The translations under genes and the position numbers were made by a program. From Escallonia rubra (Eukaryota > Streptophyta > Magnoliopsida > Escalloniales > Escalloniaceae), in the NCBI GenBank assembly GCA_033065855.1, contig JAVXUO010002616.1, positions 1-64,000 on the forward strand: DNA of 64,000 bases. Direction: 5' to 3'. The notes beneath the pieces are model-generated. The model was not told the DNA's origin. It searched no databases and saw nothing but the letters and a program-made list of their open reading frames with translations. Below are positions 26,219-64,000 of this stretch, piece by piece. The number at the start of each line of letters is the position of its first letter. Position 1 is the stretch's first letter.

Positions 26219-26266
<48 letters not shown>
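26216..26266. repeat. (TA)n microsatellite
   Basis: About 23 uninterrupted TA units lie directly against the left terminus of the 26266-33976 transposon. The equivalent left terminus at 11322 is also preceded by TA repeats. Confidence 0.95.
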
Positions 26267-26267
<1 letters not shown>

Positions 26268-26545
26268 CTGATCCGTTGAGAGCACTAGCAAAATAGCCTA
26301 TTTTGCAAGCGCGATCTGGTCGTCCATCCTGAAAGATGGACGGCCCAGATCTTGTCTTTTTCAAAAACTGTCAGTCGTCCGCGACATAGTGTCGCGGACA
26401 GCCTTTTTTACCTTTTTGCCCCTCCTCCCCTGTCCGCTACACTGTATGGCAGACGACTTTCAAGTCCTGGCATGTGTCAGGAAAAAAATGTCCGCTACAT
26501 AGTGTAGCGGACGTCCTCTAGGCTGACACACGTTAGGACCTGTCC
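26266..26545 (+). repeat. Left terminal inverted repeat of member 1
   Basis: It carries three palindromic sites (26378-26398, about 26432-26452, 26491-26511) separated by conserved spacers such as CTTTCAAGTCCTGGCATGTG. It pairs with about 33695-33976. A TATATATATTCAAAACCCTA sequence at 26692-26711 downstream may be the promoter for the PMD gene. Confidence 0.85.
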
Positions 26546-27152
26546 CGTCAGTCCTTTACGCCCACGACGGTTATCTTGTCCTTATCTGTCACGTCAACAG
26601 TGTCCGCTACACAGTGTGGCGGACGTAATAGTCCGCGATATAGTGCAACGGACGTTGTAAACGGTCCATGATACTGTATAGCGGACATTTAATATATATA
26701 TTCAAAACCCTAACTACAACACTCTTCTCCATTCTTCCCACTCACAAATATTTCCAGCAGCGTTGGCAAGCAGATCTGCGCAATTTCTTCTTAAGAGCAG
26801 CTTTAATATCCTAATAGATCACGTAAGTTCACAAAATCAATCATTTACATTTTTGTAATCTATAGTTGTGATGAATATTGTGTTTTATGCGTGGTTTTGA
26901 TTATGCATTGAGCATGTGCTAGCGATGAAAATTTATATATGTATGTATTTGTTCATGTGCTAGCGTTTGTAAAATCCGATTCCGTATATGTATATATATC
27001 TATTATACATATACTCATTTGTATGTATTATGCATGCGCTTGGGTTATATGTATTATGCATGTGCTAGCGTCGTATTTTTGCGAGCGATTATCAAAATCC
27101 AAACTGTAAAATTCAAACTGAGAAGGTTTTTTCATAATTTCAATTGCAAAAA

Positions 27153-29323
27153 ATGGAATTTAACCCTGGACCAGAAGATCCATCCGTGTTATACGACCAA
27201 GCCAACCATATCAGTACGCTCATATGGGATGGTGGAGTAAGATACATTATTTATCAATTTTCTTATTCTTACGAACGTTGTATACCATTTGTTTTGCTTA
27301 AATTGCATTTATTAATTCGTAGGAAAGAGAACTTCTCACCACCGTAAAAGTATCTCACGAGTTCACAGCATGAAAATTGAACAAGTCCCAGAAAAAGATA
27401 TTGCGTGGAATTGGGTTTGGAATTTTCACGCATGGGCAGATCTTTCAACAGCTTGACTGGGCCTTGATAGGTGCCCTTGTTGAGAGGTGGAGAAGTGAAA
27501 CGAATACGTTTCACTTCCCGCTCGGAGATATGACAATTACCCTAGAAGATGTAGGCTTCATCTTAGGGTTACCGGTGACTGGGCGGCCGGTAATTGCTCC
27601 TCCGTCAGAAGCAACGAATAAGAGAACCGCTAGGAACTTCTTCACTTCGATACCCCAAGATCAATTTAGCAGTGGTGGTATAAAGTTGAAGTGGTTGGTA
27701 GATACCTACGAGGTTTTGCCGGAAAACTATACGGGCCGTATACTTTTGTTGTACACACAAGCCTTCCTCTTGTGGGTGATGGGGGTAATTTTATTCCCAA
27801 CAACGTCGAAGAACACGGTCAGCGTGAAATATTTACCGTTGTTGGGTAACCTGAGGGAGGTTGGGGATTATGCCTAGGGTGCAGCGGTCCTTTTGTATTT
27901 GTACTGAGCATTGCACAAGGCAACGACTGTGCGTGTCTTTCGCTATTGTAGGTATATCATATAAACTATGTCTTCGTTATTGTTTTTTTTTTGTTGAATC
28001 GACAATATAAATATAATTTGCTCATGTTCTCAGGTGTGGTCTTATGAACACCTTGATCTCCGTGCACCAACGCGTAGGGATGGAACCGATAAAGTGTGGC
28101 CTCAGTTGTGTGCTTGGAAGTACATTCGGAGGGATAGCCACTACCAGAGGAGAGTCGATCCCCATCACAACATTACGTACTATCGAGGGGAGTTCGACCG
28201 TCTATCTCTGGGCCAAATACGTTGGGCACCGTACATACGTTTGGCGCGACGGGTGGGAGAGTCGTCCGTCTTCACGCTCTTCGGGTTACAGCGCACACCC
28301 CTGATCCACTTCGAGGTCGTAGAATGGCAACTGCCAGACTGAGCAATGCGCCATTTTGAGTTGGAGCAGGGTTTGCCAGCCGATGCCCCAGATATAAGGG
28401 TTAACAGGAACCCACCGGGTTTCGGATGGTTTGGCAAGGCCAATGCGCACAAATTGTGCGCGGCCGAAATAGAGCTTTGGAGTTCTTGGCAGGACACACT
28501 AGCGGCCATCATCTCGGAGCCTGACCCCGTTATCAGCATCGAACAGTACGATGAGTGGTACTACCGCATCACGCGAATGAGAGTAGCCCCAGTAAACTTT
28601 GAACGCGGGGAGAGGTATGTGCCTAAGGGTCGGATCGATCAGCCGGTCAGGGCCCCTGAAGGACATTATCCGCCGGCCAAACTAGGAATTGGAGTCCAAT
28701 ATCCCATGTTCTTGCCCCCCGACGGAGGGCAAGATTTTCCGGTTGACCCCCATGAAGGAGGGCAATATCCGAAAGGGTATCCAGCCAGGCCCCTAACGCC
28801 GCGTAAATGTGAGCTAATCCGAGCCCGTTATTTTAGCGCCCCCCCCCCCCCAAGATAGAGCGTCGTCTGACGTGGATCACCTGGAGGGCTTGGATTATAA
28901 TTGCTCGTGGTCAGAATTGGCCTCGCTGGCGCCGGGAGCTTGGTTAGACAACGGTGTCAGATCGCACTACGTGCAAATTCTGAGGCAAATGGGTCGGGAG
29001 CAGCCAAACTTTGGTTGGCGCATTTTTATCTTGGATGTTTTTTTTCATGGCATCCTAGTACAAGAGTGGGAAGACTGGGTCAATTCAAGGAAGGGGAGAA
29101 CCCTGGCCCAGTGGAGACCGCCCACTAACCTACAAGCATATCTTGCTAGGGATAGTCCAGTGAGCGCAAGTGTTGCCGACGTGTTTCTAGTCCCATTTTT
29201 AGGGAATGCCCACTAGTACTTGGTTTGCTATGAACAAGTAGAGAAGACGGTATTAGTCATCGACAGTCTCTAAGATGATACCCCCGGGATGCCTGTGATT
29301 AGCATGTACAAAGGCATAGGCTA
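27153..29323 (+). pseudogene. Plant mobile domain (MAIN/MAIL1-like) fused to an Ulp1/C48 protease-like domain, decayed
   Basis: Exon 1 (27153-27236) encodes PGPEDPSVLYDQANHIS-IWDG, the usual start of plant-mobile-domain proteins. Exon 2 (27323 to about 27951) has the domain core (ALVERWRSETNTFHFPLGD, then EDVGFILGLPVTGRPV). Exon 3 starts at 28034 (WSYEHLDLRAP...WAPY). After a 13-bp C run at 28839-28851 the frame shifts into 28872-29323, which resembles a C48 cysteine protease: WLDNGV, then FLVPFLGNAH, a stop where the family has W after the catalytic H, YLVCYE and VIDSL. The catalytic Cys region is not seen. In-frame stops occur at about 27371, 27876, 27907, 28342, 29215 and 29272, several at positions where the family has W or R. 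MAIN/MAIL1 act in nuclear genome maintenance and silencing; transposon-borne relatives have unknown roles. Confidence 0.82.
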
Positions 29324-29465
29324 GTTGGATGCCATGATAAGATCCTGTTTACTTCTTCTTGTAACTTGCATATTGTGGTCAGAGATAGCATTTTGGCTCA
29401 TTGACTGATCTGTGATTTGCTTTGAACGGTGGGAAACAAAGTGTGGGCCAGTTTTGGTTTATGTC

Positions 29466-29915
29466 TTTCTGCAGGGCCGTCTGCTATATAGTATAGCGGA
29501 CGTAGAGAGAACCGAAAAAAACTAAGTGTTGGATATGTACTAAGTGTTGGATATGTGTCTTTCTGCAAGGCCGTCCACTATATAGTACAGCGGATGTAGA
29601 GAGAACAAAAAAAAAACTAAGTGTTGGATATGTATCTTTCTGCAGGGTCGTCCGCTATATAGTATAGCGGACGTAGAGAAGAGAACAAAAAAAACTAAGT
29701 GTTGGATATGTGTCTTTCTGCAGGGTCGTCTGCTATATAGTATAGCAGACGTAGAGAGAACCAAAAGAAAACTAAGTGTTGGTTTCTGTCTTTCTATAGG
29801 GTCGTCCGCTATATAGTATAGCGGACGTAGAGAGAACCAAAAGAAAACTAAGTGTTGGATATCTGTCTTTCTGCAGGGATGTTTGCTACACAGTAAAGCG
29901 GACGGCCCTGCAAAG
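29466..29915. repeat. Tandem array of about six palindrome-bearing units (period about 77-100 bp)
   Basis: Each unit has an inverted repeat with CCGCTATAT/ATAGCGG-type arms, then GACGTAGAGAGAAC, an A-rich run, CTAAGTGTTGGATATGTGTC and TTTCTGCAGGG. Unit palindromes lie at about 29473, 29572, 29651, 29729, 29806 and 29881. The array separates the 3' ends of the PMD-Ulp1 gene (+) and the coiled-coil ORF (-). Confidence 0.92.
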
Positions 29916-29978
29916 AAAAACTAGGCGTTAAATTACAAAGAAGCAGCATCGTTGACACAACGTGACATTGGAGCATCT

Positions 29979-30410
29979 TTAGTCATCTTCATTTGACACT
30001 GGAGCATCGAAAACTGATCCAAGTTCGAAGCTCATGTTCCAGTATACTTGTGCTTCATTGTTGTTGTCATCTTCATGTGCATCACGTGCCATACGACGTA
30101 AGTTATGCCTACTTTCACGAACTCTCATTCTATTATTTTCTTCACGTATTCGATGCAGTGCCCTTTCAAGCTCCATGTATGTAATTCGAGGCATGTTGAT
30201 TGCCTTTTGTCGAGGTATGGGTATATTCATGCACCGTGAATCAGCTACTAAGACCTCATTTTCATTCATCCGATAAGACCATTTTGCATGTAATGTATTA
30301 ACATAGCGTGATGAGTAACGCAAACTTGGACGCAAAGAATAGTGAAATTCATCTTCGCCCGCCCAATAACGACCCATTGCTTCAAAAATATCTCGTGGAG
30401 TATATGACAT
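29979..30410 (-). CDS. Coiled-coil protein of the Mutator-like family, copy in member 1
   Basis: An open frame of about 143 residues from an internal Met (the SYTPRD start) to the stop at 29979. The longest frame starts at 30446 inside the adjoining LTR, so its first residues are foreign and the native N-terminus may be lost. The central part (WSYRMNENEVLV, IPRQKAINMPR, then RALHRIREENNRMRVRE) aligns with the ORF at 63607-64000 (WAYRVKESEALH, VPQRRSLSMSR, then RIRMENNRMLLRR). Heptad-like spacing and many Arg/Glu residues suggest a coiled coil. The end is acidic. I recognise no named family. Its presence in two elements of one family suggests a transposon-encoded accessory protein. Confidence 0.55.
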   Translation of the reverse strand: MSYTPRDIFEAMGRYWAGEDEFHYSLRPSLRYSSRYVNTLHAKWSYRMNENEVLVADSRCMNIPIPRQKAINMPRITYMELERALHRIREENNRMRVRESRHNLRRMARDAHEDDNNNEAQVYWNMSFELGSVFDAPVSNEDD

Positions 30411-30440
30411 TTCGAGAGTTGTTATGAAACTGGGAGTATA

Positions 30441-32195
30441 TGTCACACCCCCGGAAGGGGAAGTGCAACGCTAAACAGGCTAGTTAACACATATACCTCA
30501 AGGATAAACAGAGCTTTACTACAACCTCAAAAGAAACAGCGGAAGTATGCTTAAACATTACAGTCGTCCATAAGTGGAAAGACTGAACATAACATTATAT
30601 TACAGACCACTTCTCTTCTCTACAAGTACTACACTCCAAAATAAACGAAGAACAACGAAAACGTTACTCACCCAGCGTAATACTCTGGAGTCTTCCCGAG
30701 GTAATCCTCTTCGTCCCTTGGCAGATACTCCGACTCCGAATCTAGGAAAAAAAAAGTATCGTGAATGGGTCAGCCTAATGGCTCAGTAGGGTATCTGGTG
30801 CTTTTAAGTCCAAACATGACTTGATCATATTATGTATAGTTAGTATGAACATGCAAGTCACTTGAACAGATGATACCTATGTACTTAAGAATAATTTAAC
30901 ATATCGAGTAACACATGCAAGCATCTGCTCACACTTGCCTTCAAAAGAAACGAGAATAACATATCGAGCAAGATTTGAAATCTTGTAGAACATACACGAG
31001 AATGACAAGCAAGACCTAAATATTAACTTGATCTCGCCAAGAATAACCAAACAGTACAAAAAGTTCAAGACAAATATAAGCCAAGTACGAGAATATCAAT
31101 ATGCAAATATGCCCCTCATGCACGAGCCAACCTTCCCTGAGTGCGAGAGACTTTTCATATCGCAACCAACTGATGTAGCGGGTTCGACAGAAGAAGTCCA
31201 ATGTCATCACAGGCACGCCAATAATTCCTTTCGAGAATTAGTACGCATAGCTAGTGCGCACTATCAAGACATGAACGAGAACGAGAACCCTGGCCGGATA
31301 ACTTCCAACCCCGGCAAATAACACCCTCAACTCACTTTTTTCCTCCTCCTTCACGTGATATGCATAATCATGTACATACGTCAACATGAATGTCATCAAG
31401 TAACTCAAAAGAGGTTTAATCCCCTGTCGAGTCATATTTACCGTATTATCAACAATACATGTCAAACATGTAACCTAATCTGCCCAGTATTTCAAATGGC
31501 AGCAGGAGTAGTCGCTACTCCGAAAATCATAACAATTTAATTACAAGGCTTCTACAGTCAAACTATATATTTATGAAAACTAGACTTAAATAGATACATC
31601 CCAGTATTTTACTTGACACGAAAATATTGTCTTAAGATCATATTAAGCCCTTTAAAAGACAAACTTCAGAATCTGCCTGGCAACAGTTTCACAAGATAGG
31701 TTCCAAGATACGAATTTTAAACCATAGAAATAATACTTGAAATAATCTGAAATTTGGTATGTATACTCTATACATGTACTAGTGTAACATATAAAATAAA
31801 CAAGTCCATATCTTAACTAAAAGTATACATTTCTAAGCATCAAAAGTAATCTAATTCCATGACTGTACAGTTTCACAGAACAAGTTTCAAGCCACGAATT
31901 TTAAACCATAGTAATAGTGCTTGAAATAATCTTAAATTCGGTGTGTATACTCTACACATGTAGTAGTAAAACATATAAAATAGCCAAACCCATATCTCAA
32001 CTAAAACCATACATTTCTAGGCACCAAAGTTATTTCATTTTCATGACTGTTTTGCAGGTTTTGAACATATCTCTCTCTTAAGACCATTACAAGCAAGTTT
32101 ATAAGTATTCCACTATTCATAATACTTCTCTAACATGCTTTAAAACCTAAAAGAACAAGATAACCTACCAAGAAAATTAAGCTCAAGCCAATTGG
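30441..32195 (-). mobile_element. Truncated solo LTR, same family as 23830-26045, inverted
   Basis: Read on the minus strand it matches 24310-26045 almost throughout, including the ACTCGATATGTTA blocks. Its end at 30441 (TGTCACACCCCCGGAAGGGG) corresponds to the terminus at 26045. The other end stops at about 32195, so about 480 bp equivalent to 23830-24310 are missing and no target duplication remains. It inserted between the coiled-coil ORF and the B3 gene of member 1. Confidence 0.85.
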
Positions 32196-32423
32196 AGAAA
32201 GGTGACGGCGATAATTCTGTTTTAATAAATTGGTGACTGAAGACTTGTTTTAGCGATGGAATCAACAATCTCAATATCGATTAACAATAAAAAGCGTACG
32301 ATTAACAATCAACAATCTCAATATCGACGGAATCTTAAACGGCACAATTAAGAACCTAAAACTCAGAAAAGTAATTCACATTAACATAAAATTATTCATA
32401 ACAGAATTTAGGGTTCAACATAG

Positions 32424-32869
32424 GGGGAAAGAAGTTTTTTCACAAGTGCTCCGATCAAACACCGTCACTTGAAAATTCCACTTCCCCGTGTGTTCAAACA
32501 CTACAAAGTCCCCGAGTTGGAGGTCGCTGCACGAATTCGTTCCAACCCTTTGCGAGACAAATTTGACCTTGGCCGCGCTTCATCTTGATTCTAACATGCC
32601 ATGACCCTTTACGGCTGGTTAAAGTTGAATCAAAATAAATTGTGGTAAGCCAATCGGAAAAGGCTACCGGTATGTCCTAACATATTCATAATACAAAGAA
32701 AGGGTAAGTTTTTAACCAAAGATCAAACTTTTAACAAACACGAAAACACAGAGAAAGAGGAATGGCCTACAAGTTCTATATCAAAACTAGGCATCATGAC
32801 CTTGAAGAAGTGTCTGCCTGCAAGGTGCATGTTGCCTACAAATTCGCTGCTCGACGAATCAGAAGCCAT
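32424..32869 (-). pseudogene. B3-domain gene of the Mutator-like family, frameshifted copy
   Basis: Minus-strand homologue of the intact gene at 62615-63065. Exon 1 from ATG 32869 encodes MASDSSSSEFVGNM...[13 protein letters not shown], with a GTAGGC donor. Exon 2 begins DIPVAFSDWLTT and continues through SWHVRIKMKRGQ and GWNEFVQ. The bases between EFVQ and the LGDFVVF-equivalent show a 4-bp deletion relative to the other copy, which changes frame and brings a stop. The remaining DNA still aligns to the end. B3 domains bind DNA in plant transcription factors of the ARF/RAV/REM types; this short single-domain form is closest to REM-like B3 proteins. Confidence 0.8.
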
Positions 32870-32929
32870 CACCAAAAGAGAATACGCTCGGAAACATTCT
32901 CCAGCTTCTTCCAATGTTTGAAAGGTTCG

Positions 32930-33690
32930 TCCTAGATACGGATCACTAGCATCTACGGGGTGTTGGAGCTCGACACGAAATCAGACATTGTGAAACAAGA
33001 CCTATGTAGAAATAGACTACGCTTAACAATCAAATGACATTTTCAACTGAAAATATTACCTAAAAATTATCTTGGCAAATAGACCAATTTAGGATGACAA
33101 ATATACCATATAAATAATCTCAAAAGTCTCTCATTTTGCTAATTATAGATTTATTGAACATAAAAAATTAAAATTACTAAGATAAATAGACAAATTCATC
33201 ATGCCAAAATACAACAAACGTATCTCAACAAATTTGAATTTAAATAGGATACATGTGCCAAAGTTAGCGAACCTCAAAAAATCAAAATTAACTACAATAA
33301 ATTTGTTTAAAGTTAACAAATTAATTTCTAGAACATCACAAGTTGATGAATAGAGTGACAAATTTCTAGAACATCACCAAAAAATCTATACTTTTTTGTT
33401 CAAAAAAAAAATTATACTTTATCAGTCAATCCACCCAGAAAACTTATGATGTACCACAAACTTACCTTGCTTGAGTGAAGCTTGAAGCAAGTGTTACTCG
33501 AAGCTTGAAGGGAGCCGAAAATGGAAGCAAGTGAATCTGAAGGAGAAATTTTTTTTGGCCGAAAGAGCTGAAAATTAGGGAACTTTTGGGTATAGGGGCA
33601 ATAATGTCCGCGATACTGTATAGGCGGACATTATAGCCGACACTCTGACACGTGCAAAAATAAAGACCTGACGGGAGACTTTCTTGGCGG
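32930..33690. other. B3-gene upstream region in member 1
   Basis: AT-rich DNA between the B3 start and the right terminal repeat. No gene was found. ORF 33143-33361 is AT-rich and unsupported. A duplicated CTTGAAGCAAGTG motif lies at 33478-33535. Confidence 0.5.
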
Positions 33691-33694
33691 GTGA

Positions 33695-33976
33695 CGAGAC
33701 AGGTTCTGACATGTGTCAGCCTAGAGGACGTCCGCTACACTGTGTAGCAGATGTCTTTTTCCTGACACATGCCAGGACTTGAAAGTCATTCGCCGTACAG
33801 TGTAGCGGACAAGGGAGGATGGGCAAAAAGGTAAAAAAGGCTGTCCGCGACACTATGTCGTGGACGACTGACAGTTTTCGAAAAAGACAAGATCTGGGTC
33901 GTCCATCTTTCAGGATGGACGGCCAGATCGCGCTTGCAAAATAGGCTATTTTGCTAGCGTTCTCAACGGATCAGCT
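33695..33976 (-). repeat. Right terminal inverted repeat of member 1
   Basis: It matches 26266-26545 inverted, with palindromes around 33729-33749, 33790-33810 and 33844-33864. One further palindrome with an extra base lies just inside at about 33607. Confidence 0.85.
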
Positions 33977-36090: not shown

Positions 36091-36142
36091 ACCAAGTTCT
36101 AAAATGTGACTACATTTTTTTCAGTGATGTTACAACATTACA

Positions 36143-39100
36143 ACTCAATCATTTTCAGTTTGGGAATCATCATCATCTTCATCACTAGACTCGTCGTCCT
36201 CTTCTTCGCGGGACTCGTTGTCCTCTTCATCTTCTAATCCATCATCTTCATCAGTAGACTCAATCACATCATCTTCAACACTTTCCACGTCTTCCGCGTC
36301 ATCATCTATGACTTTTTCTCCTACATGAAGTGTTGTTGGAAGAGGAAGATCGTCATCCTCGTTGTTCACCTCAACAGGTAACAAGACAGGTGGTTGGTCG
36401 GCTTGAAATGTGTCTAGCTCACTGTCATATGTCACGGGCAATTTCTTGGACTTGATAACTGTATACCAATGAGATTTTGGATTGGCGACGTCCTCTGCAT
36501 AAAAGACTTGTGCAGCTTGACTAGCAAACACAAAGGGCTAGTCTGATGCAAGTATTGACTTGACATTGACATCTACAATCCCTTAAGAGCTAACACGGAT
36601 TCCTCTACTGCATGTGACATCGAACTACGTACACTTGAACATTACCAGGCGGTTTTGGAACCCAGATATGTTAGCTCAACAATCTCATCTAGCTCTCCGT
36701 AAAAGTCCATGCAATTCTCGGCATAACAGTGGCCGTTGACCAAGACTCCACTGTTTTGAGTTTTGTTTTGTTCGGTCATCATCTTTTACGTTAAACCTAA
36801 ACCCGTTGATGATATAGCCTCCATGATAGGATGCTTGTTTGTTAGGGCCTTGAGCTAGTAATTTCAAGCAAGAGGCTACCGGTCTATCCATTGACTGAAC
36901 CTATTGTAGATGACTATAAAAATTAAGGATAAATCAGTATACTAATTGGCCACAGAACTGTATATAACACATAATATAATTTCATTAAAGACTTACACGC
37001 CTTCTGAACCACTGTACAAATTGTGATTTCCGATGAGATTCAAGATTCCGCATCGAACTCACTACAAACCAATATAGTTGACTCGCTTATCTCACATTTT
37101 TAATTATGTATAGCAATGTAAGTGAATTAAGACATTAACTTACTCAACGAATGCCGAAACTTCATCGCAATTTAGAAGGGCATATATTGTTGCATCACTG
37201 TACTCTTCATCTATTAGCCATCTAGTATACGTTCGGCCGAACGGACTACCTGACTGCATGAATATTGACAATTGCCCTTCCAAATTTGTGCTTGATCCGG
37301 GGTCATTTGGGCCTAGTTGATTTAACCTTGTATCAACATCAGGCCCAAAATATTGACTGCAAAAGTTTACAAGCTCTTCCATTACGTAAGCCTCCGCAAT
37401 TGATCCCTCAACCCGAGCCTTATTGCAGACTTTTTTCTTTAAAAGAAACATGAACCTAGAAGTTTAGCGAATCGAGTTAGGTGGAATATCAATGATAACA
37501 GGTGTCGCATTAAGTGTAAACGAACAACTGTAACAATTTAAAGATCACCTCTCGAAGGGATACATCCACCGATATTGTACGAGTCCACCCATCTTAGCTT
37601 CATATGCCAAGTGAACATGCATATGCTCCATTGAATCAAAGAACGAAGGTGGGAAGATTTTCTCCAGCTTGCAAATCGTCACCACAATGTTCTTCTCAAG
37701 CACCTCCATGATACTCTCCCAGATCGTAGAAGAACATATATCTCGAAAGAAATGAGATAATTCAATCAAAGTCTCACAAACAACCCGTGGCAACAGTCCC
37801 CGGAAGGCAATAGGAATGAATCTCTCCATGAATACATGGAAGTCGTGACTTTTCATCCCTTGGAACTTACATTCCAATACATTGCAACAACGAGATATGT
37901 TGGACGCAAACCCATCCGGAAGCTTCAAATTTTTAACCCACTGACAGACCTTCTCCACTCGTTTCTTGTCTAGACAGTAAGGTGCTTTCAGAAGTATCGT
38001 CCTCCCGCTGACTATCCGAGGATGCAATTCACGGCGAACACCCAACTGTTGTAGTTCCCTTCTCGCTTTAAGGTGATCTTTCAATTTCTCCTTGACATTC
38101 ATCTATGTGTTGAACACATTATCAAAAATGTTCTTCTCAATATGCATCACATCCATATTGTTTCGGATAACTAACGTCCTCCAGTAGGCTAACTCCCAGA
38201 AAATACAAAATTTCCTTCAGTTGTGCTATTTCCCGTACCCTGGAATTTGCTGAACTGGCACACCCTTATCGTGTGGTATGTCAGTATCAAGTGCCTCCAG
38301 GTGTGAGAGCACTTCTTCACCAGATGAGTAGTCCAGTGTGACAACCTCACGCTCGATTGTCCCGTCAAATTTATCCTTCTGCCTACGAAACTAATGGTCC
38401 AGTGGCAAAAGCTTACGATGACATCCGAACCACAAGGGCTTTCCGCCGTGCTTTAACGTATGACCGGGGTTCACACCCATATAAGCAGAGCATGCTAGCT
38501 TTCCATGTGTGCTCCAGCCACACGTCATTCCCAATGCGGGGAAATCATGTATAGTCCACATCAAAGCAACCCTCATCTAAAAATTCTGTTTAAGGGATGC
38601 ATCATATGTTTCGACTCCATGATTCCATAACTGTTTTAACTCCTCAATCAACGGCCTTAAATACACATCTATGTCCTTGCCAGGACTCTTCGGCCCCATA
38701 ATAAGCAACGACAAGAACATCTACGGCTTCTTCATGCACATGCCTGGTGGAAGGTTGTACGGGACAATAATAACAGGCCAACAAGAGTAAGGTGTGGTAG
38801 ACTGACCGAAAGGGTTGAACCCATCAGTTGCGAGACCAAGTCTAACATTTCGAACCTCCTGAGCAAAGATTGGATGCCTGAGGTCAAACTCCTTCCACGC
38901 CTCTCCATCAGCTGGGTGTGTCAGCACATTGGCATCGTTGCTACGAGTCTCATGGTGAGCCCTCATATGTTCAGTCGTATTGGAGGAGGAGTATATTCTT
39001 TGAAGCCGTGGTGTGACCAAAAAATATCGCACTATCTTACATGCAATGTTTGTCTTCTTCCCTTTGTCCGGTGTGTACCTCGAATGATCACATATTAGAC

Positions 39101-39794
39101 ACCGTGACAACTCCTTATTCTCTTTCCAGAATAATACACAATCGTTATTACACGCATCTATCCTCTCATAGCTCAACCCAAGTTTCCTCATCATCTTCTT
39201 CGCATCATAGTACGACAGCGGTAGCCTTTCACTTTCGGGCATAATTTCTTTGATTAAGGTAACAAACTCTTTAAAACCTTTCTCACTCAGCCCGTGGTCT
39301 GATTTCAACTGTAATAACCTACTAACCGCAGACAGCCGTGTGTGTTTCGGAGCTCCATCCCACAACGGCTCTTCCGCAGCTCTCAACAACTCATAAAACT
39401 GATGAGCCCCCTCGTTCAGCGGTTGGGGACTCTCATCACCGTTGTCGTTACCCCAGTCAACATTAGCATGCCCAGCATCCATAATCATATCTCGATAATC
39501 ATACCGTGCCTCCTCCCTAACTTCAGTTTGACTAGCCGGGTTAGATGACAATACTATTGTTTCCCCGTGCTGCGTTCACCTTGTGTATCCACCCATAAAA
39601 CCGTATCGACGAAGATGCCATTTTACTTTAATTATTTTTCTCCAATGCAACAACTCACATCTACCGCACGTACACCTTATCTTATCAAAGTCAACATGTG
39701 CAGGATACGCGTAAGTGAAGTAGAGATATTCGTCAACGCGATCCTCAAAATCGTCAGCATTCTTCTTTTTTATCCAACTTTGATCGACCGACAT
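36143..39794 (-). pseudogene. TNP2/TNPD-type CACTA transposase gene, disabled by stops
   Basis: The start is ATG at 39794 (MSVDQSWIKK). Domains in order: transposase-associated domain (about 39794-39580, with CxCGRC and YGFMGGYTR), the TNP2/transposase_21 core (39551-38721: YDAKKMMRKLGLSYE, TPRLQRIYSSS, HPADGEAWKEFD, RLGLATDGFNPFG, PYNLPPGMCMK), its continuation 38720-38105 (GPKSPGKDIDVYL, WTIHDFPALG), the following region 38102-37545 (GMKSHDFHVFMERFIPIAFRG, LEKIFPPSFFDSM, YRWMYPFER), and DUF4218/DUF4216-like exons at 37455-37140, about 37060-36990 and 36900-36145, ending in a highly acidic tail. In-frame stops lie near 39575 (TGA where W is expected), 38577 and 38103. Introns fit GT/AG. It is nearly full length, so recently active. 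Confidence 0.9.
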
Positions 39795-49101: not shown

Positions 49102-49289
49102 TTTTTCTAAGTCTGGAAATATAACTTTGTTGATAGCAAAAGTAGGCGACATACCTTGGTACATGGGAATTGAGTACATTGAAACTTGCAAAATGAAGGA
49201 AAATTACAAGTGTGGAAAATGTACTAGGCAGGCTATGGCTTGGGCGAGTGGGTCAGATGTCCAGCACTTAGAGTATAAGCTCGCCAGAC

Positions 49290-50945: not shown

Positions 50946-51431
50946 CCTGGGGGGAGCCTGGAGTTGGTTGTGACTGGTCTCTTCTTGGTCCTCGAGGTGA
51001 TGCTCCTCTTGGATGACATGGTTGAGGCTTTTGCTGGTAGTCCTGCGTTGTAGAATGATGGTTGCTTGGGTGTGTTAGGCAAGGAACGAACTGCACTGCG
51101 ATGCTTACTTCCCCATCAGAGTTGCCAAAATGATGCCAAGGAAAGTGGGTTCGCAGTCGAGGTGGAGGTGCCACAAGGAATGCAGTCCGAGTCAGATACT
51201 AAGTGTACCGATGTAGGACACAACAGGGTGGAGCAAGAGCAGACACCAATGGCTTCCCAGATAGAGCCTGAGGGTGGCGGTGCTGCGAAGGGGATGACGC
51301 ATGGTGAGTACACGGCGATAGTCACAGTCCGATGCTTAGGTCCAGAGTCAAGGTCCTGTATGTTTCTCTCTATAGAATTCTAGAGTGAGAAAGTGAAAAC
51401 TGTTGAAGTTCAGAATGAATTCTCAAAACCT

Positions 51432-51441
51432 CTATTTATAG
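51432..51441 (-). promoter_or_regulatory. LTR TATA box, copy 2
   Basis: CTATAAATAG on the minus strand, in the same position relative to the LTR end as in copies 1 and 3. This LTR lies 5' of Gag copy 1, so it would be the promoter for that unit. Confidence 0.7.
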
Positions 51442-52589
51442 AGTTTGATATGATGATGTCATCAGCCGACACGTGGTGCTTTCCGAGAGTGACACGTGAC
51501 CGAGGGGTCCACAGTTGCCGGTGCTCCAGGGATTGTCGAATCGCATATTCACCTGGCCTGCCCCGCATAGTGTCGCTTTGTCTATCTGGAAAGACTGGCT
51601 TCGACAGCGTCGGTGTGGCCAGAGAACCCCCTTGATCTAGCCACTAATCCAAGCCTTTGTAGACTCCCACAAGCTTGGCAGCGGTGGGGAAGACCCGATG
51701 CCCAACTGCCAGGCGGACTAGGCACAATGCCCTTTGGACACCTACTCTGGTCTCGGAGTGAGCCGGGGGTCCTAGGCCCTAGGGGTGCTGCTGAAGCCCC
51801 CAGTGCCAGAGCACGTATGTGAGTCATGCAGACACCTTGACGGAGACAGTGTCCCAAATGAATTGCCTATTTCGTGGGTCGAGGTAGCATCCCGGAGGAG
51901 CCGTCTACCTGACGGGCCGAGGTAACAACCCGGAGGAGCCGTCTACCTGGCTGAAGGGGAGTTGAAAAGTTCACAGGTTGAGATAGTGTCCCGGAGGAGT
52001 CGCCTATCCCCGCGGGTGAGTCCTTGTGCCGGAGCACTAGGAGCGCGTCAAGGTAGCATCCCGGAAGAGATGTCTACCTAGCGGAAGGGGAGTTTTCATG
52101 CTGAAGCACTTAGAGCTCCCTGACAGAGATAGTGTCCCGGAGGAGTCGCCTATCCCCACGGGATGCTGCACACTCTGGAGAGTGGGTCGAAGCATGTTCC
52201 ACGACCAAGGTAAGGTACGCATTGTGTGGTGAAATGATGGACCTACGTAAGGTGCGTGGTAGTGTGTCAACGAGCCAGGGGAGGTGATTGTATCAGTCGC
52301 AGCGCATGGGCGCGGCGGAATGTATATAGTGTTGAGGCAAGATAATGTGACAAGGAGCCAGGGGGCGCGACTGTATTAGTGGCATGGCGCATGGGCGCGA
52401 CAGAGAGTTAGAGTGCTGCGCGCAGGCGCCGGCGACGGGGCTCAGAGACTGTGTGCGGACGAGGGTGACGGGGGTCTCGAAGACAGCGCCCACGCGACGG
52501 GTGACGAGCGTCGTAGAGTTTACGCGCGGGCATAGGAGACGTGTGTCATAGACGATGCATGGTTCCTTGAAGATAAGTGAAGGTGACTA

Positions 52590-53358: not shown

Positions 53359-53384
53359 GGGGGGGGGGGGGGGGGGGGGGGGGG
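53359..53384. repeat. 26-bp G homopolymer
   Basis: The longest of several G or C runs in the window, within the middle LTR. Confidence 0.97.
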
Positions 53385-57169: not shown

Positions 57170-57235
57170 GTGGAAAGGAAGAAAAAATGAGGGTGAGAAG
57201 AGTGAGAAAAACCCACGTGTGGAGGGAGGTGAGTT

Positions 57236-57240
<5 letters not shown>

Positions 57241-57266
<26 letters not shown>
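57241..57266. repeat. (GA)n microsatellite
   Basis: About 13 GA units within a purine-rich stretch on the plus strand that continues to 57530, giving serine/leucine/phenylalanine-rich antisense ORFs that are not called. Confidence 0.9.
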
Positions 57267-58432
57267 ATGTGTAAGAGAGAGAGTGTGTGTTTGCAAGAGA
57301 GTGAGAGAAGATATTTAATGTGATAAGAGAGAGTGTGTGTAAAGTGGGGAAATGGGGAATGGTGTGTCTTGGGTAGTGAGGGAAGATAGATGAAAAGTAT
57401 GTTGAGTGATGTGAGAAAAAGAATGAAGGAAGAGAGAAAAAAAAGTACAAGGTTGGAAGTGACTGGAGAGATAGAAAGGAAGAGAGAGAAAGGGAATTAA
57501 ATGAGGGAAAAGAGTGGGAGAGTTCCACATGGAGGGGTGGGAAGGGGGCTGCCCAGCGCGGGGGTTGGTGGGTGGGGGGGTGATTTCCCTGCCATTCGCT
57601 TTCTCACTATGCCGAGCGTTGCAGCTATCGTCACCCCGGCCTCTGTGCCCTGTGGATAGTGTGACAGCCGGAGAAAAAAGTGGAGAACTAGAAATATTGT
57701 AGAAACTAAACTAAAATTGACTTACCCTTGACGAATTAAATATTTATGGGGAGTGCACCAAAAAAAAATTTTGGCCTTCCAAGGAGGAAGAGGGAAGATG
57801 AAAATTTTAGTTGGAAAAATTTTCAAACCGATGCAAAGAGAATGAGAGGAGTGGTGGGAGGATGAAAAATGTTGTTGAATTTTTTTTCCCTAAGTGTCAA
57901 AAAGTGGAGAGTGGGGCTCGGATAAGGGTGGCGAGGGAGGTGTGGACTTGGGATGGCGGGCTTGATGACCGGTTGAGTCACATAGGCAAGGGAAGGCCGT
58001 CGGGACGTGTTGCGTGCATGCCCACGAGGTCGCATGGCCTGAGGGGATGTCAGCTGATGGAGTTGAGACTTAGTAGCGTGGCTCGAGCCACCCCGCGCAC
58101 CACGCACCACGTACCATGTTGATGCGATGTGAGGCGGAAAGGGTAGGGAAAGGGTGAAGCCCCCAAGGAAGTGGGTGATGGCATCAAGGGTGGTGTCAGT
58201 AGACTTGGGTAAGAGCAATGTAGCTTGAAAATTTTTCTAAGTCCGGAAAATATAACTTCATTGATAACAAAAGTAGGCGACATGCCTTGGTACATGGGAA
58301 TTGAGCACATTGAAACTTGCAAAATGAAGGAAAAAAATTACAAGTACGGAAAATGCACTAGACAGGCTAGGGCTTGGGCGGGTGGGTCACATGTCCTGCA
58401 CTTAGAGTTTGAGCTCGCCAGATGCAATCTTG

Positions 58433-60027
58433 TCAGCGAAGTTGAACTTGAGGCCTCTGCACCACTTGAGGCTGTGACCGACTTTGGCAGGAGTTGCGAT
58501 GGGCTAGGTCTTTCGGGGTAGGTTCAGTGTCGGCATCGGGCTGGGTTATGGCATTGTCGTTGATCCAGATCTCGAGGAGAGCTCTGATTGTCTTCAAGTC
58601 GCATGGGTATTTCAGGGCAGGCAGCGGCTGCCTTCGCTTTTCAGGGCGTCCATCCCTTTCTTGGGATTGACGCTTCCGGCTATTGTCGTTGCCACTAGCT
58701 GCTTCCGTCGTCGCGTTCAGGGCAATATGAGTTTGGGGCTTTGGGGTCTTTGACGGACCGACTGAGTTGTAGGTGCGTCGTGCAGCTTCCTTGAGATGTC
58801 CCAAGACCGAAGCTGGAGGTTTTCAAGGTAGACCTTATATGTGTCTTTCATGTTCTTGATGCAAATTGGTACAATGGTCTTATCCTTTTTGAAGTCAGAG
58901 CACTCCAAGCACTTGTGATAAAATCGCGTAACATAGGCGTTGAGATCTTCCCCGGGGTTCTGGCGGATTCCGACAATGTCAACGATGGTCACATGTTCCA
59001 TTTCATAGTGAAACTTGTCAAGGAAGAGCTGGACCATGTCAGACCAGGAGTGGATAGTACCGTCGGGGATCTGGTGGTACTAAGAGTAGATGAGGCCAGT
59101 TAGGGACTTGTGAAATTCCCAAAGCTTCAAAGTGTCGTCCTCCATGTAGTGCTCTAGGAAGCCAGGAAAACGGGCGAGGTGCTCGCGGGTGTTGCCCTCT
59201 TTACCGTTGAACAGAGTGAAGGCCGGTTGCTTGTACTTGACAGGGTAGGGCTTAGTAGCGAGGCTGCCAGAGCAGGGAGCATGGCCAGACAACTTAGAGG
59301 GGGTGTGTGGTACGGATGACTTCTTGAAACGGCAGAGGATGGCATCAAGGTAATGCATGGTGACATACGAAGCATGCGAGGGTTTGTGTCCTGTCGGGAT
59401 GATCCTGGCACCAGAGCCCCCAGACGGAGCAACCTGAGGCATTAAGGGGATGAGAATGGTAGAGAAGGATTGGTGGTGGGGATCAACTTGTTGGGGTATG
59501 ATTTGCGTAGGGGTAGTGTCATCGGCTGAAGACAGGTCGTCAGGAAGGGTCGACTGAAGAAAGTTGGGGGCATGAGTTATGTTTAGGTGTCGATTGGTTT
59601 TGTTAGGGTTAGGCTCCATCTCAATTGAGTCATGAGTCTCTGAAGTACTTCGAGCAAGGGTAAGGCGTGGCACCGCGAGTTGAGGTGCAGCGAGTCTTAC
59701 TATCGAGGGCCCGGAGGACCAAGGCTGTGGTGGTCGCGACACTGGGACCTGAGCAGTGTCCAAAACTAGCCCAGGCTCTGAAGGCTGGATCTGAGTAGGA
59801 AGGGCCAACCCTAAAGCTTGGGATGACACGGGGTGAGCAACGGACACAGGGTGGGGTGCTCTGGGGCCTTGAGAAGTTGGCAACTATGAAGTCAAGACTT
59901 GGATTGATTTTTGCATTTCTAATATGACAGCCATGAGAGAATATTGAGAGTCTTGGAGTTCAGTGATGGTAGAAGTAAGGTGTTGGATTGTGGTGTTGAC
60001 GAACGCGGCTACATTGGGTGCATCCAT
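58433..60027 (-). pseudogene. Gypsy-type Gag, copy 2
   Basis: The start is ATG 60027 (MDAPNVAAFVNTTIQHLT), then a proline/serine-rich linker and the Gag core (FTLFNGKEGNTREHLARFPG, FHKSLTGLIYS, then MVQLFLDKFHYEMEH, PGEDLNAYVTRFYHKCLE). Defects relative to copy 1: TAG after VLTS where copy 1 has CAG, TAG after LIYS where copy 1 has TGG, and loss of one C in a C run near 58800 that shifts the frame into GHLKEAARRTYNSVG. The longest open part is 267 codons (59883-59080). It is followed directly by the LTR end, with no pol. Confidence 0.85.
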
Positions 60028-60212
60028 CTTAGGGGGAGCCTGAAGTTGGTTGTGACTGGTCTCCTCTTGGTCCTCGAGGTGATGCTTCTCTTAGATGAGT
60101 GGGTTGAGGCTTTGGCTGGCAGTCCTGCGTTGCTAAGGCACGGTTGCTTGGGTGTGTAAGGCAAGGAACGAACTGCACTGTGATGCTTACCTCCCTAACA
60201 GAGTCGCCAAAA

Positions 60213-60945
60213 TAATGCCAAGGAAAGTGGGTTCGCAGTCGATGTGGAGGTGCCACAATGAATGCAGTCCAATTAGATGACAAGTGTACTGATGTGGGAC
60301 ACAGCAAGGGTGGAGCAAGGGCAGAGACCAATGGCTTCCCGGACAGAGCCAGAGGGTGGCAGTGCTGCGAGGCTGATGGCGGAGGGTGAGTACTCGACGA
60401 CAGTCACAATCCGATGCTTAGGTCCAGAGTTATGGTCCTGTATGTTTCTCTCTCTAGAATTCGAGAGTGAGAAAGTGAAAAATGTTGAAGTTTAGAATAA
60501 ATTCTCAAAACCCCTATTTATAGAGTTTGAGGTGATGATGTCATCAGCCGACATGTGGTGCTCCCCGGGAGTGACACATCACCGAGGGGTCCACAGTTGC
60601 CAGTGCTCCAGGGACTATCAAATTGCATATATTATCTGGCCTGCCCCGCACAACGTCGCTCTATCTATTTGGAAAGACTGGCTCCCACAGCGTCGGTGTG
60701 GCCAGAGAACCCATTTGATCTTACCACCAATCTAAGCCCTTGCAGAGTCCTACAGGCCTGACAACAGTTGGGAAGACGCGACGCCCAACTGCCAGGCGGA
60801 CTAGGCGCGATACCCCCCGGAGACTTGCTCCCGTCTCGGAGTGACTCGGGGGTCATAGTCCCTAGGGGTGCTGATGAAGCCCCCAGTGCCAGAGAACTTA
60901 GGCCAGTCACGCAGACACCCTGGCTGGCGGAGATAGTGTCCAGGA
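60213..60945 (-). repeat. LTR copy 3, truncated
   Basis: It matches the first about 730 bp of the other LTRs, starting TAATGCCAAGGAAAG (terminal TG changed to TA) next to TTTTGGCGACTCTG. Similarity stops at GGAGATAGTGTCCAGGAGG near 60945, where transposase coding sequence begins. Confidence 0.85.
60514..60523 (-). promoter_or_regulatory. LTR TATA box, copy 3
   Basis: CTATAAATAG on the minus strand followed by GGGGTTTTG. Conserved with the other two LTRs and placed upstream of Gag copy 2. Confidence 0.7.
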
Positions 60946-61976
60946 GGCATTTTTCTGTGGGCATGAAAACGACGGGCATGAGTGAATCTATGAATGCCTC
61001 GTTCGATAGTTATGTGGGTACAACTACCAATTTGAAGAGTTTCGTCACATCCGCACAAAAAGCGGTTGCGTCGTTATTCGTGAAAGAAAGGGCTGTAGAA
61101 TTTGCAACCATGTACAAAGAAATGAGAAGGTTACTTGAGACCCCGCTGAAGCTGAACGGTGCCAAAGTCTATACGAAGGAGATCTTCCTGCTATACCAAG
61201 TAGAGCTGCAAAAATCGGGACGATACTGTATAAACAAGGTGGCAGAAAAGTCTACGCGTTAGTACAAGGTTTATTCACTCGTGAATGACCTCCTCCCTGA
61301 AAAGCTACGCAGAATCTATACGGTGAGCCACGACACATTGACGGACTCGGTGACATGTGTTTGCAAGAAGTTTGAGTTCCACGGCGTCCTGTGTAGACAC
61401 ATTCTGCGGTTTTTCACCTAGAAGAATATCAGGACAATCCTCGATAAATACGTCTTGCCATGGTGGACGAAAGGTGCAAACAGGTTGCACGGTACCATTG
61501 CCTTTCCGGAGCACCTGTATACTGACTTTGAAGAATCAGAGACGTTGCGGTATAATCATCTGGTGACGATGTTCACCCGTTTGTCCGTAAAGGGTGCTGC
61601 TACAATGGTCGGATATAAACATCTCCTCGAGGTAGCTCAGTAGCAAGAGCCCATAGTCGACCAATTGGAAGCAGCTTCAGTCAGCAATGCGGTTGACACC
61701 GAGCCTACGACGGGATCAGAAGATGACGAGCCGGGGGAGGAAGATGTCAATGATATCCGACCTTTGGATTATATCGCAAACGAAAGGCCGCACGAGATCT
61801 ACGAGAATGAAAAGCTCTATTGAAACGGCAACTCAACCTAAAAAGCTGAGAATGTGTGCATTGTGCACGACAAGCGGAACCATTACAAGGCACTGGGGAT
61901 AAGTCCAGGGGGTTTGCAGGACGGGGAAGAAGATGACGCCAGATATGAGGACGAACAAGCTGCAGTGGACCTTTAA
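60946..61976 (+). pseudogene. MURA/FAR1-type Mutator transposase, C-terminal part
   Basis: The frame opens in the conserved FSVGMKTTGMSESMNASFDSY motif (family GMRTTQRSESMNAFFD) and continues through LKSFV, KVYTKEIFLLYQVELQKS and the SWIM zinc finger CVCKKFEFHGVLCRH (about 61356-61400), then NIRTILDKYVLPWWTKGA. An acidic tail follows. In-frame stops at 61260-61262, near 61420, near 61642 and near 61820 disable it. The N-terminal FAR1 zinc finger and the DDE catalytic core are missing, lost at the LTR junction. MURA catalyses cut-and-paste transposition and binds terminal inverted repeats. Confidence 0.88.
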
Positions 61977-62124
61977 TTTTTTGTACAAGCCATCAAGTCT
62001 ATTGACATTTGTAATTATTTTTTGTAATTTTTTTCTAATAATCTTTCGACCGAATACTGGAATTTTTTTTCTGATGGACCTATGAGAGCCACCAAATCTA
62101 AGTTTAAGTTTTTTTTTTATTAGC

Positions 62125-62345
62125 CACGTCCACTAAATAGTGTAGCGGACGCCTCTGCAGAGTCTTAAAACCTCAACACTATAGAAAATTTTGACCTTCT
62201 TTTTTGTTCGCTATACAATGTAGCGGACAACTCTGCAGAGTCCTAATTTTTTGGTGTGTCCGCTACACAATGTAGCCGACGGCTGTGCAGAAAAAAACTT
62301 TTGGGGTTCTTTTTATCCGCTACACAATGTAGCGGACGACTCTAT
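62125..62345. repeat. Palindrome array between transposase and B3 gene
   Basis: Four sites with CCGCTACACAATGTAGCGGAC-like halves (about 62130, 62207, 62260 and 62318), separated by CTCTGCAGAGTCCTAA-like spacers. Same motif as in the terminal repeats of members 1 and 3. The array is followed by TATATATTAATCAGATCGGC, a candidate promoter for the B3 gene. Confidence 0.88.
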
Positions 62346-62614
62346 CATGTTATATATTAATCAGATCGGCCAATCATCTTATCACTCCATCCATTTCTCT
62401 ATATGTCTCGAACATCTCACCCAGCCGCTACCCCATCTACGGCGACCCACATCTCTGGTGACCCACATCTCCATCAACACAACCGTCCTCCCCTCGACGC
62501 CGCGCCGCCTCCGGCGACAGCCTCGTCCTCCCCTCAACGTCGTGGCGCCTCCAGCGACATACCTGTCCTCCCCCCGACGCGGCACCACCTCCCTCCGGCG
62601 ATAGATCCGCCCTG

Positions 62615-63065
62615 ATGGCTTCTGATTCGTCGAGCACCGAATTTGTAGGCAACATGCAGGTAGGCAGATGCTTCAAGGTCATGATGCCTAGTTTTGATAT
62701 AGAACTTGTAGGCCATCCCTTTTTCTCTGTGTTTTCGTGTGTGTTAAAAGTTTGATCTTTGGTTAAAAACTTACCAATTTTTTGTATTATGAATATGTTA
62801 GGACATACCGGTAGCCTTTTGCTATTGGCTTACCACACTTTATTTCGATTCAACTTTAACCAGCCGCAAGGGGTCATGGCATGCTAGAATCAAGAAGAAG
62901 CGCGACCGAGATCAAATTTGTTTCGCAGAGGGTTGGAACGAATTCGTGCAGCAGCATGACCTCCATCTCTGGGACTTTGTAGTCTTTAAACACACGGGGA
63001 ACATGAATTTTCAAGTGACGGTGTTTGATCGGAGCACTTGTGAAAAAACTTTCCCCCAATGTTAA
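62615..63065 (+). CDS. Intact B3-domain protein of the Mutator-like family (118 aa, two exons)
   Basis: Exon 1 is 62615-62707 and exon 2 is 62802-63065, with a GT...AG intron at 62708-62801. The joined frame is open. The start is ATG 62615, conserved with the copy at 32869. After a short serine-rich leader comes the B3 fold: [35 protein letters not shown], then [37 protein letters not shown]3 domains bind DNA in plant transcription factors; a single-domain, REM-like protein of this size is small. It is placed between two palindrome arrays, so binding to them is an attractive guess but not shown. Its homologue in member 1 is frameshifted. This is one of the few open coding sequences among the mobile elements here. 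Confidence 0.82.
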
Positions 63066-63254
63066 ACCCTAAATTCTGTTATGAACAATTTTATGTTAAT
63101 GTTCATTATTTTTCCGAATATTAGGTTCTTAATTGTGCATTTGAGAATTATGATTGTTAATCGTACGTTTTTTTATTGTTAATCGATATTGAGATTGTTG
63201 ATTCCGTCGCTAAAACATTATTTCCGTCGCCAATTTCATTAAAAAGAATTATCG

Positions 63255-63492
63255 ACGTCCGTTGCAATGTCTAGCGGATGCCGCAGCAGAAAGTCTGATC
63301 TCCAACACTCAAAAAAAAATTGTTTCCCGTACATCCGCTACAATGTCTAGCGGATGGCGCAACACTTAAAAAAAATTGTTTCTTGTACGTCCGCTACACA
63401 GTGTAGCGGACGGTGCAGCAGAAAGTCTGATTACAAAAAATAAAAAAAAAATTGTTTCCTGTAGGTCCGCCACACTGTATAGCGGACGACGC
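63255..63492. repeat. Palindrome array downstream of the B3 gene
   Basis: Four sites at about 63258, 63336, 63390-63410 and 63464 of TCCGCTACA(N)TGTAGCGGA type alternate with AGCAGAAAGTCTGAT and AAAAATTGTTTC(T/C)(C/T)GTA spacers. It lies between the 3' ends of the B3 gene and the coiled-coil ORF, as the 29466-29915 array does in member 1. Confidence 0.88.
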
Positions 63493-63606
63493 AGCAGAAA
63501 CTCCCAACACTTGGAAAATCGAAAGACGGGGTTCTCTTATTAGAATGACATATGGATAAGTGCTAGTTGGAATAAAATCCTAACATACAGTAGGAAGAGA
63601 TATATG

Positions 63607-64000
63607 TCATTCTTCATTTGACATATATTTATCAAATAAGTACTGATCATTGGTTAAAATATTATTTCTCTCGTTTGAATTGAGGTGCCTCCCACTAGCC
63701 TCGGCCATTTCTTCCGCAAGTTGAAGCATGTAAAATCGTTTTCTACGCAGCAACATTCGGTTATTCTCCATACGAATTCGGCACACAGCTTTCTTACACT
63801 GCTTAACATTACGCCTCGACATACTAAGTGAACGACGTTGCGGCACAGGTGCTCTCAGCGTGGTGAGATCTTGGTGTAGTGCTTCTGATTCCTTAACTCG
63901 ATATGCCCATTCTCTTCGTAAACCTGCATAATACTCTCTCAGATCCGTGTACTTCACTTCTTTGTAGTCGTCGTTCCTTTCACACAACAACCACACAGTC
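63607..64000 (-). CDS. Coiled-coil protein of the Mutator-like family, partial at window end
   Basis: The frame is open from the window edge to the stop at 63607, about 130 residues, with no ATG near the edge, so the N-terminus lies outside. It is homologous to 29979-30410: WAYRVKESEALH, PQRRSLSMSRRNV, then AVCRIRMENNRMLLRRKRF and LAEEMAEA. Arg/Glu/Leu-rich heptads suggest a coiled coil. The end is NDQYLFDKYMSNEE. No named family is recognised. The two copies have diverged strongly in sequence yet both stay open, which hints at selection on the protein. Confidence 0.6.
   Translation of the reverse strand, partial: TVWLLCERNDDYKEVKYTDLREYYAGLRREWAYRVKESEALHQDLTTLRAPVPQRRSLSMSRRNVKQCKKAVCRIRMENNRMLLRRKRFYMLQLAEEMAEASGRHLNSNERNNILTNDQYLFDKYMSNEE

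Follow-up and report, generated by a model that had tools for sequence, protein, structure and literature searches.

A Mutator-like transposon family of Escallonia rubra with transposase, B3, paired coiled-coil and PMD–Ulp1 genes and a candidate self-regulating role

Elements A and B and their complete relatives

The window analyzed here, a 64,000-bp stretch of Escallonia rubra DNA (positions 1–64,000 of contig JAVXUO010002616.1, referred to as C3216), carries two decayed copies, elements A and B, of one family of Mutator-like elements (MULEs). The host genome comprises 566 Mb, and the protein and dyad searches covered it. An earlier note, made from the sequence alone, had assigned a plant mobile domain (PMD)–Ulp1 gene to A and a transposase to B, and had credited both with a B3 gene, a coiled-coil reading frame and a palindromic repeat. 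The boundaries it gave for A were confirmed: the element is framed by terminal inverted repeats (TIRs) of ~300 bp that are 92% alike. The palindromic repeat, termed dyad below, is present in both elements, with 15 copies in A and eight in B, and the B3 gene is common to them over 675 bp at 87% identity (Table 1). The coiled-coil frame is not shared, since A holds the gene CC2 and B shows CC1, a paralogue with 32% identity; CC1 is absent from A.

The division into a PMD copy and a transposase copy held only in part. A does carry the PMD, while its Ulp1 part is a relic in which a Pfam search found no C48 match, although PF02902 was matched in other copies. A also retains the beginning of the transposase, which abuts the start of B3, so the element looks like an internal deletion. 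B has the SWIM-bearing end of the transposase, and past the window end contig C3216 continues with CC2 (64396–64854, +), Ulp1 (66654–66205, −) and PMD (68764–66623, −) up to a right terminal repeat of A's type that ends near 69930. The left part of B is missing from the window, similarity to another copy beginning at 60942, directly after a repeat that recurs at 47516–48247. A and B cannot be unrelated elements, given the B3 and flanks that they share and the A-type TIR at the right end of B; nor can they represent separate PMD-bearing and transposase-bearing lineages, since B has both genes and A retains the transposase start.

Fifteen regions around protein matches, hand-picked and not random, were examined: the continuation of B, eight further family members and six CACTA copies described below. 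One member, C1395:633288–644684, is complete, measuring 11.4 kb, with 311-bp TIRs that are 93.6% alike and all five genes: a FAR1-MULE-SWIM transposase, B3, a divergent paralogous CC1/CC2 pair and an antisense PMD-C48 (Ulp1) gene. No stop was found in the stretches of this copy that were compared. The earlier note had proposed an autonomous form encoding four proteins; a single element does hold every gene that it named, and the number is five because there are two coiled-coil genes. Such a copy contradicts the view that relatives never contain more than one of these genes. Full-length copies with TIRs, all genes and a conserved order are thus represented by the C1395 copy, by the fuller copies below and by the genome-wide spacing, in two arrangements.

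In type 1, the transposase (+) is followed by B3 (+), CC1 (−), CC2 (+) and the C48 and PMD parts of the last gene (both −), with the PMD outermost. Of the type 1 copies, C2502 has all genes, with four stops in CC1, and C408 has all genes, with a partial CC1, a frame break in the transposase and TIRs at both ends (85% alike, 422 bp). C1774 was found without the PMD and C872 without the CC pair; C2894 was examined only up to CC2, and a PMD match lies 5.9 kb from its B3. In type 2 copies (C25, C582 and C1395), the CC pair is inverted as a block, and B3 is 56–57% identical to that of B. The two subfamilies are therefore set apart by the orientation of the CC block and the divergence of B3, as well as by a shift in the dyad.

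TA repeats flank A, B, C408, C2502, C872, C1774 (left side) and the C1395 copy, the other end being often imperfect or uninspected. Since the element ends lie inside these repeats, an 8–11-bp target-site duplication is unreadable. The TIRs and the transposase, with FAR1 N-terminal and SWIM C-terminal to the MULE domain, agree with the FAR1/Jittery group. Together, these data show a MULE family of high copy number that has long TIRs and a FAR1-MULE-SWIM transposase and is found in TA microsatellites.

Across the family, the FAR1, MULE, SWIM, PMD, C48 and B3 domains score above Pfam cut-offs. The transposase of C2502 is a single open frame of 761 residues (MULE 1.3e-33, FAR1 2.9e-13, SWIM 3.8e-5, all above cut-off), and frames of 774–776 codons are open in more than 40 of the 150 transposase matches scored. 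The PMD matches PF10536 at 1.5e-69 (profile positions 15–346 of 347) and, in a second copy, at 1.2e-70. Peptidase_C48 (PF02902) is matched in copies other than A at 1.6e-8 and 6.6e-13, and the residues H, D and Q-x4-DCG, which we take to be catalytic, are present in C2502, C1395 and C582. PMD and C48 lie on the same strand, and a long frame in C25 joins the linker to C48, so the two probably form one multi-exon gene. The solved chain nearest to B3 is At1g16640 (E 0.0072), and the B3 frame is free of stops in 146 of the 150 type 2 matches scored. CC1 measures 144 aa and CC2 143 aa (C1395 copy); their low identity and the presence of both in fuller copies exclude a single gene. A Pfam search with CC1 and CC2 gave sub-threshold matches only, and no solved structure resembling CC1, the one of the two searched, was found.

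Table 1. Features of elements A, B and C in the window (positions of C3216).
Feature	Position	Strand	Evidence
Element A, internal-deletion copy bounded by TIRs	26267..33976		inverted repeat; transposase start fused to B3 start
A, left TIR with dyads	26267..26550	+	matches in C2502, C408, C1774, C872, B and a type 2 copy
A, PMD exons, one in-frame stop	27374..28858	+	PF10536 E 9e-51
A, PMD-C48 gene, remnant of its C48 (Ulp1) portion	28818..29216	+	60–78% identity to C48 region of other copies
A, six dyad units in tandem, spacing ~77 bp	29450..29923		repeat family and pattern search
A, CC2 coiled-coil gene	29979..30410	-	open frame; relatives in fuller copies
A, B3 gene, frame break	32418..32869	-	shared with B
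A, first 37 residues of transposase, fused to B3 start	32870..32980	-	97% identity to C2502 residues 1–37
A, right TIR	33692..33976	-	inverted-repeat comparison
B, C-terminal part of transposase, with stops	60942..61976	+	SWIM PF04434 5.4e-5; 80% identity to C2502 residues 405–761 (last 357)
B, four dyads in transposase–B3 gap	62128..62337		pattern search
B, B3 gene, probably two exons	62615..63065	+	PF02362 1.3e-10 on exon 2
B, four dyads in B3–CC1 gap	63257..63487		pattern search
B, CC1, cut by window end; frame of 144 codons from contig position 64041	63607..64000	-	frame; CC1 search
Element C, relative lacking genes; similar ends, six dyads	11321..18933		TIR alignment; pattern search
C, SKP1-like piece	12223..12519	-	Pfam Skp1 2.6e-27

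Gene order and selection across the genome

Protein searches returned 1,421 (B3, type 1 query), 1,352 (CC1), 3,247 (PMD), 2,331 (transposase) and 1,393 (type 2 B3) candidates, of which 150 each were scored. For type 1 B3, the top 80 of the 150 entered the spacing counts and dyad-to-gene distances; for PMD, 101 of the 150 were used for the B3–PMD, CC1–PMD and dyad distances and all 150 for the pairs with transposase and type 2 B3. The counts refer to the matches listed and may be inflated by repeated contig stretches, as the CC1 on C3217 is identical to that of B.

Transposase and type 2 B3 occurred within 8 kb of each other in 61 listed pairs, against a chance expectation of 0.64, and in 60 of them B3 lay downstream on the same strand at 1.70–1.98 kb. 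Type 2 B3 was followed by CC1 downstream on the same strand in all 35 listed pairs and by the PMD downstream on the opposite strand in 12 of 13. For type 1 B3, both CC1 (13/13, at 593–1,612 bp) and the PMD (9/9) were on the opposite strand. CC1 was downstream of the transposase in 48 of 50 listed pairs (38 same strand, 10 opposite), and the PMD was downstream on the opposite strand in 20 of 22. The 27 listed CC1–PMD pairs split 14 to 13 in orientation, since the two arrangements predict both. Among the 150 transposase matches scored, at least 64 had a listed B3 nearby, at least 47 CC1, at least 20 the PMD and at least four all three; 56 had no listed partner, and many of these may be partial copies. 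First-look PMD candidates exceeded those of B3 or CC1, and dozens of rows share a bit score of 326.6, which suggests a recent burst.

Selection was assessed by pooled dN/dS (Table 2), where the pairs are non-independent and several type 1 copies contain stops. Evidence of purifying selection is firm for the transposase, with all five single pairs departing from neutrality, fair for CC1 (two of five) and weaker for the PMD (one of three for exon 1), while constraint on CC2 and B3 is equivocal. The idea that the accessory genes are more than passengers is thus favored for CC1 and, less firmly, for the PMD, alongside the transposase, and does not extend to C48, for which no constraint was shown, or clearly to CC2 and B3. 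Compared within the same pairs of elements, the B3 protein changes faster than the transposase (p 3e-5 to 5e-4); its dS is higher too, which may reflect replacement by recombination. A reading of the between-type difference in B3 as positive selection was rejected, the single-pair p values being 0.37–0.47 despite a dN/dS of 1.3.

Table 2. Pooled dN/dS within and between the two subfamilies.
Gene	Within type 1	Within type 2	Between types
Transposase	0.44	0.22	0.26
CC1	0.39	0.20	0.32
PMD exon 1	0.46	0.52	0.50
PMD exon 2	0.64	0.29	0.59
CC2	0.74	0.62	0.51
B3	0.69	0.52	1.30
C48	0.92	1.00	0.87

The dyad motif and B3 genes in CACTA elements

The dyad is a 23-bp inverted repeat found at 7,494 genome sites at up to two mismatches, while a reversed-pattern control gave none. 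In the window, all 29 matches at up to seven mismatches fall within A, B or C. Thirty-six of 100 listed exact dyads, out of the 7,494 places, lay less than 10 kb from a listed gene match (1.3 expected), and all eight sampled 3-kb dyad loci, from six separate places, share 1.2–3.0 kb with family copies. Ten copies contained 182 sites at up to six mismatches, none of them in the query-matched coding stretches that make up 34% of the sequence; the coding queries omit the transposase N-terminus, and no dyad lies anywhere in the full transposase frame of C2502. The sites are located in the TIRs, on either side of B3 (toward the transposase and toward the CC pair) and in the gap that separates the CC pair from C48. 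Between CC1 and CC2, no dyad was found in any of the eight copies having both.

Two arm sequences dominate the 9,925 exact-arm sites: 4,554 are TACA/TGTA, 2,611 are TATA/TATA and 2,760 are hybrids (1,362 + 1,398). By our arithmetic, independent arms would predict ~1,600 TATA/TATA sites and ~4,770 hybrids; the symmetric sites are above and the hybrids below independence, indicating that the two halves change together. The motif also shifts with the subfamily. In a comparison of B3 type and dyad type from which type 2 TIR sites were left out, type 2 dyads had T at position 9 in 46 of 46 and A at position 15 in 37 of 46, and type 1 dyads had C at position 9 in 91, T in 44 and A in one of 136. Given this mixture in type 1, the match between motif and B3 type is a loose tendency.

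The B3 search listed many further matches at ~67–72% identity, of which six were examined (L009–L020, e.g., C1395:1667300–1687299). We had considered the 69–72% copies as another MULE subfamily, which was ruled out because the six proved to be CACTA elements. The three copies checked at both ends (C1395, C2269 and C1712) all have CACTA-type ends and 3-bp duplications (AAA, CCT and GAT), the C1712 copy beginning with CACCA. Around B3, ~410 bp of all six match the MULE at 83–87%, and none carries other genes of the MULE family. In the CACTA copy on C1395, B3 includes a start codon, and a full exon 2 follows an intron-like gap (B3 2.9e-13); among the six copies, the dN/dS of B3 is 0.30 (single pairs p 0.07 and 0.01). 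We infer that the gene passed from the MULE to CACTA elements and not in the reverse direction. Each of the six contains 9–16 copies of the CACTA core TAGCGACGG; its TAGCG, which also occurs in the dyad half-site TGTAGCGGAC, offers no more than a lead.

Possible self-regulation, rival readings and neighbouring features

We tentatively read this family as a self-regulating system that resembles VANDAL/VANC in layout and logic but is built from different components, a reading to which we give somewhat less than an even chance: B3 and its partners would bind the dyads, and PMD-C48 would be the anti-silencing effector. The transposase would mobilize the element. B3, dimeric or bridged by the coiled-coil proteins, would bind the dyads, each consisting of two GTCCGCTA-type half-sites, and would recruit to them the PMD-C48 protein, which may oppose silencing through competition with MAIN/MAIL-type PMD proteins of the host, through SUMO removal from silencing proteins, or both. 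Gene-less relatives, element C among them, bear dyads as well, and the proteins would therefore act on the whole family in trans.

The anti-silencing role suggested for the accessory proteins, in the earlier note as here, is by likeness to VANC, which binds short motifs arrayed in the non-coding parts of VANDALs and strips methylation (PMC5735166, PMC10398659). Like VANDAL with VANA, VANB and VANC, the Escallonia family joins a MULE transposase with accessory genes (two in VANDAL), non-coding motif arrays and a fast-changing accessory protein; in contrast, VANC has DUF1985/DUF287 and no B3, and the available text does not call the VANDAL motif palindromic (PMC5735166, PMC10398659). VANDALs are also non-TIR MULEs (PMC13317346), unlike the Escallonia family with its long TIRs, FAR1 transposase, B3 and two coiled-coil genes. 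A distant link to a VANC-type domain is possible from the matches of our PMD to DUF7745 (2.3e-6 in C2502, above the cut-off, and 1.4e-4 in C1395, below it) and to DUF1985 (E 0.026 and 0.1; 14.9 and 13.0 bits against a cut-off of 35.1); DUF287 was not matched by Pfam in the PMD proteins of C2502 and C1395.

Several observations weigh against the proposed self-regulation. The DUF1985 match is too weak to prove a link, which leaves no sequence tie to VANC. Common descent contributes to the genome-wide covariation of the arms, and complementary double changes are modestly in excess when 132 distinct sites are compared (44 vs. 33.5 ± 4.2; maximum of 2,000 shuffles 50). The type 2 letter at position 9 occurs in the 44 type 1 sites counted above, including those of A's array. 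None of the five single pairs differs from neutral for either B3 or CC2 of the MULE, and the dN/dS of C48 is 0.87–1.00. Finally, no dyad was found in the element region of any of the six CACTA carriers, despite the constraint on their B3.

The last point favors the strongest rival, namely that the FAR1-type transposase itself binds the dyads, at the ends, subterminally and internally, much as with CACTA subterminal repeats, and that B3 and the coiled-coil proteins act otherwise, e.g., by regulating the transposase or host genes. FAR1 is a DNA-binding domain, and dyads in the TIRs and in the gene-less element C would be expected of such sites. Most dyads, however, are internal, between genes and away from the ends, and B3 and the dyad shift between types where the transposase is conserved (dN/dS 0.26); we consider this rival doubtful, yet a serious contender. 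Instead of being protein targets, the dyads may form hairpins in RNA or DNA that serve as terminators, as sources of siRNA or as points of recombination (e.g., for the CC-pair inversion), consistent with inverted repeats at gene ends, with none in coding stretches, and with dyad arrays on both sides of the inverted CC block; their presence in TIRs and upstream of B3 and the dominance of two specific arm sequences, not of any inverted repeat, make this improbable. Slightly less probable still is that B3, the CC genes and PMD-C48 are captured passengers of a burst with no function in the element, for while MULEs often carry captured gene pieces (as in element C), the B3 between types and C48 evolve at a dN/dS of 1.30 and 0.87–1.00 and 56 of 150 transposase matches have no listed partner, the gene order is kept in two subfamilies, CC1 is constrained (two of five single pairs significant), many copies have intact frames, and the gene structures are complete and not fragments.

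Returning to self-regulation, a stronger version would make B3, two coiled-coil partners and a PMD–SUMO protease a second, independently assembled sequence-specific anti-silencing system in plants, with a dyad coevolving with its B3 reader and a B3 portable to CACTA elements; we rate this version as rather unlikely. To our knowledge, VANC is the only sequence-specific anti-silencing protein encoded by a transposon in plants. If the proposal is true, the roles of PMD and Ulp1 in transposons and the repeated origin of anti-silencing become directly testable, owing to the high copy number, a recognizable DNA-binding domain, a candidate dyad target, two B3/motif subfamilies and a PMD-C48 partner. 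A B3 shared by MULE and CACTA elements would show that accessory genes cross transposon superfamilies, and the five-gene complement itself suggests a built-in kit for self-regulation or un-silencing.

Individual parts of this complement have precedents. Ulp1 is known in MULEs and CACTAs (PMC2528002, PMC13317346), and the Kaonashi (KI) group and other Ulp1-carrying MULEs resemble our family in a C48 gene antisense to the transposase (PMC13317346, PMC2528002). Three coding genes are reported for Kaonashi (PMC13317346); these MULEs differ in being non-TIR, and the available text on them mentions no PMD, B3 or paired coiled-coil genes (PMC13317346, PMC2528002). PMDs occur in the clades MUDR, MUDRAVI2, MDR, VANDAL and MULE-Solanaceae_1, often antisense to the transposase (PMC6446971, PMC5418596), and MULE-Solanaceae_1 combines an unknown open reading frame (ORF) with an antisense PMD like that of the Escallonia family (PMC6446971). 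For the FAR1/Jittery clade, by contrast, the accessible part of the source lists FAR1 and one ORF without a PMD, and B3 for no clade (PMC6446971). PMD–transposase fusions are known, and Ikeda et al. suggested that a MULE-captured PMD could serve anti-silencing (PMC5418596). MuTAnT/AutoMuTAnT of Medicago shares with our family a Jittery-like transposase, TIRs and insertion into (TA)n microsatellites (PMC4486113); AutoMuTAnT is 4.9 kb long with one ORF (PMC4486113), whereas the Escallonia family has five genes in ~11 kb. A B3 domain has been reported in Aegilops LTR-element consensuses (PMC9289625). In the open-access literature (without subscription papers and Repbase), we found no MULE combining B3 with PMD/Ulp1 or coiled-coil genes and no CACTA-captured B3. 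PMD, Ulp1 and TA targeting are thus already known in MULEs, and the B3/coiled-coil combination is unreported in the literature searched.

Among the remaining features of the window, element C gave no match to a family protein at E below 0.01, and its SKP1-like piece resembles a Pack-MULE capture. A foreign repeat lies inside A (30441–32199), with an inverted copy beside the element (24304–26045; 1.75 kb, 94% alike). Another inverted pair, 3–1306 and 20818–22089 (1.3 kb, 84% alike, ~20 kb apart), contains in each member an open frame of ~190–210 codons that matches no Pfam family above cut-off. Remnants of a CACTA transposase are located at 37545–39575 on the reverse strand (Transposase_21 2.1e-30, DUF4218 4.6e-24). 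Retroelement-like repeat copies, 80–85% alike, occupy 47502–52507 and 58213–60950, and one of them ends where the match of B begins.

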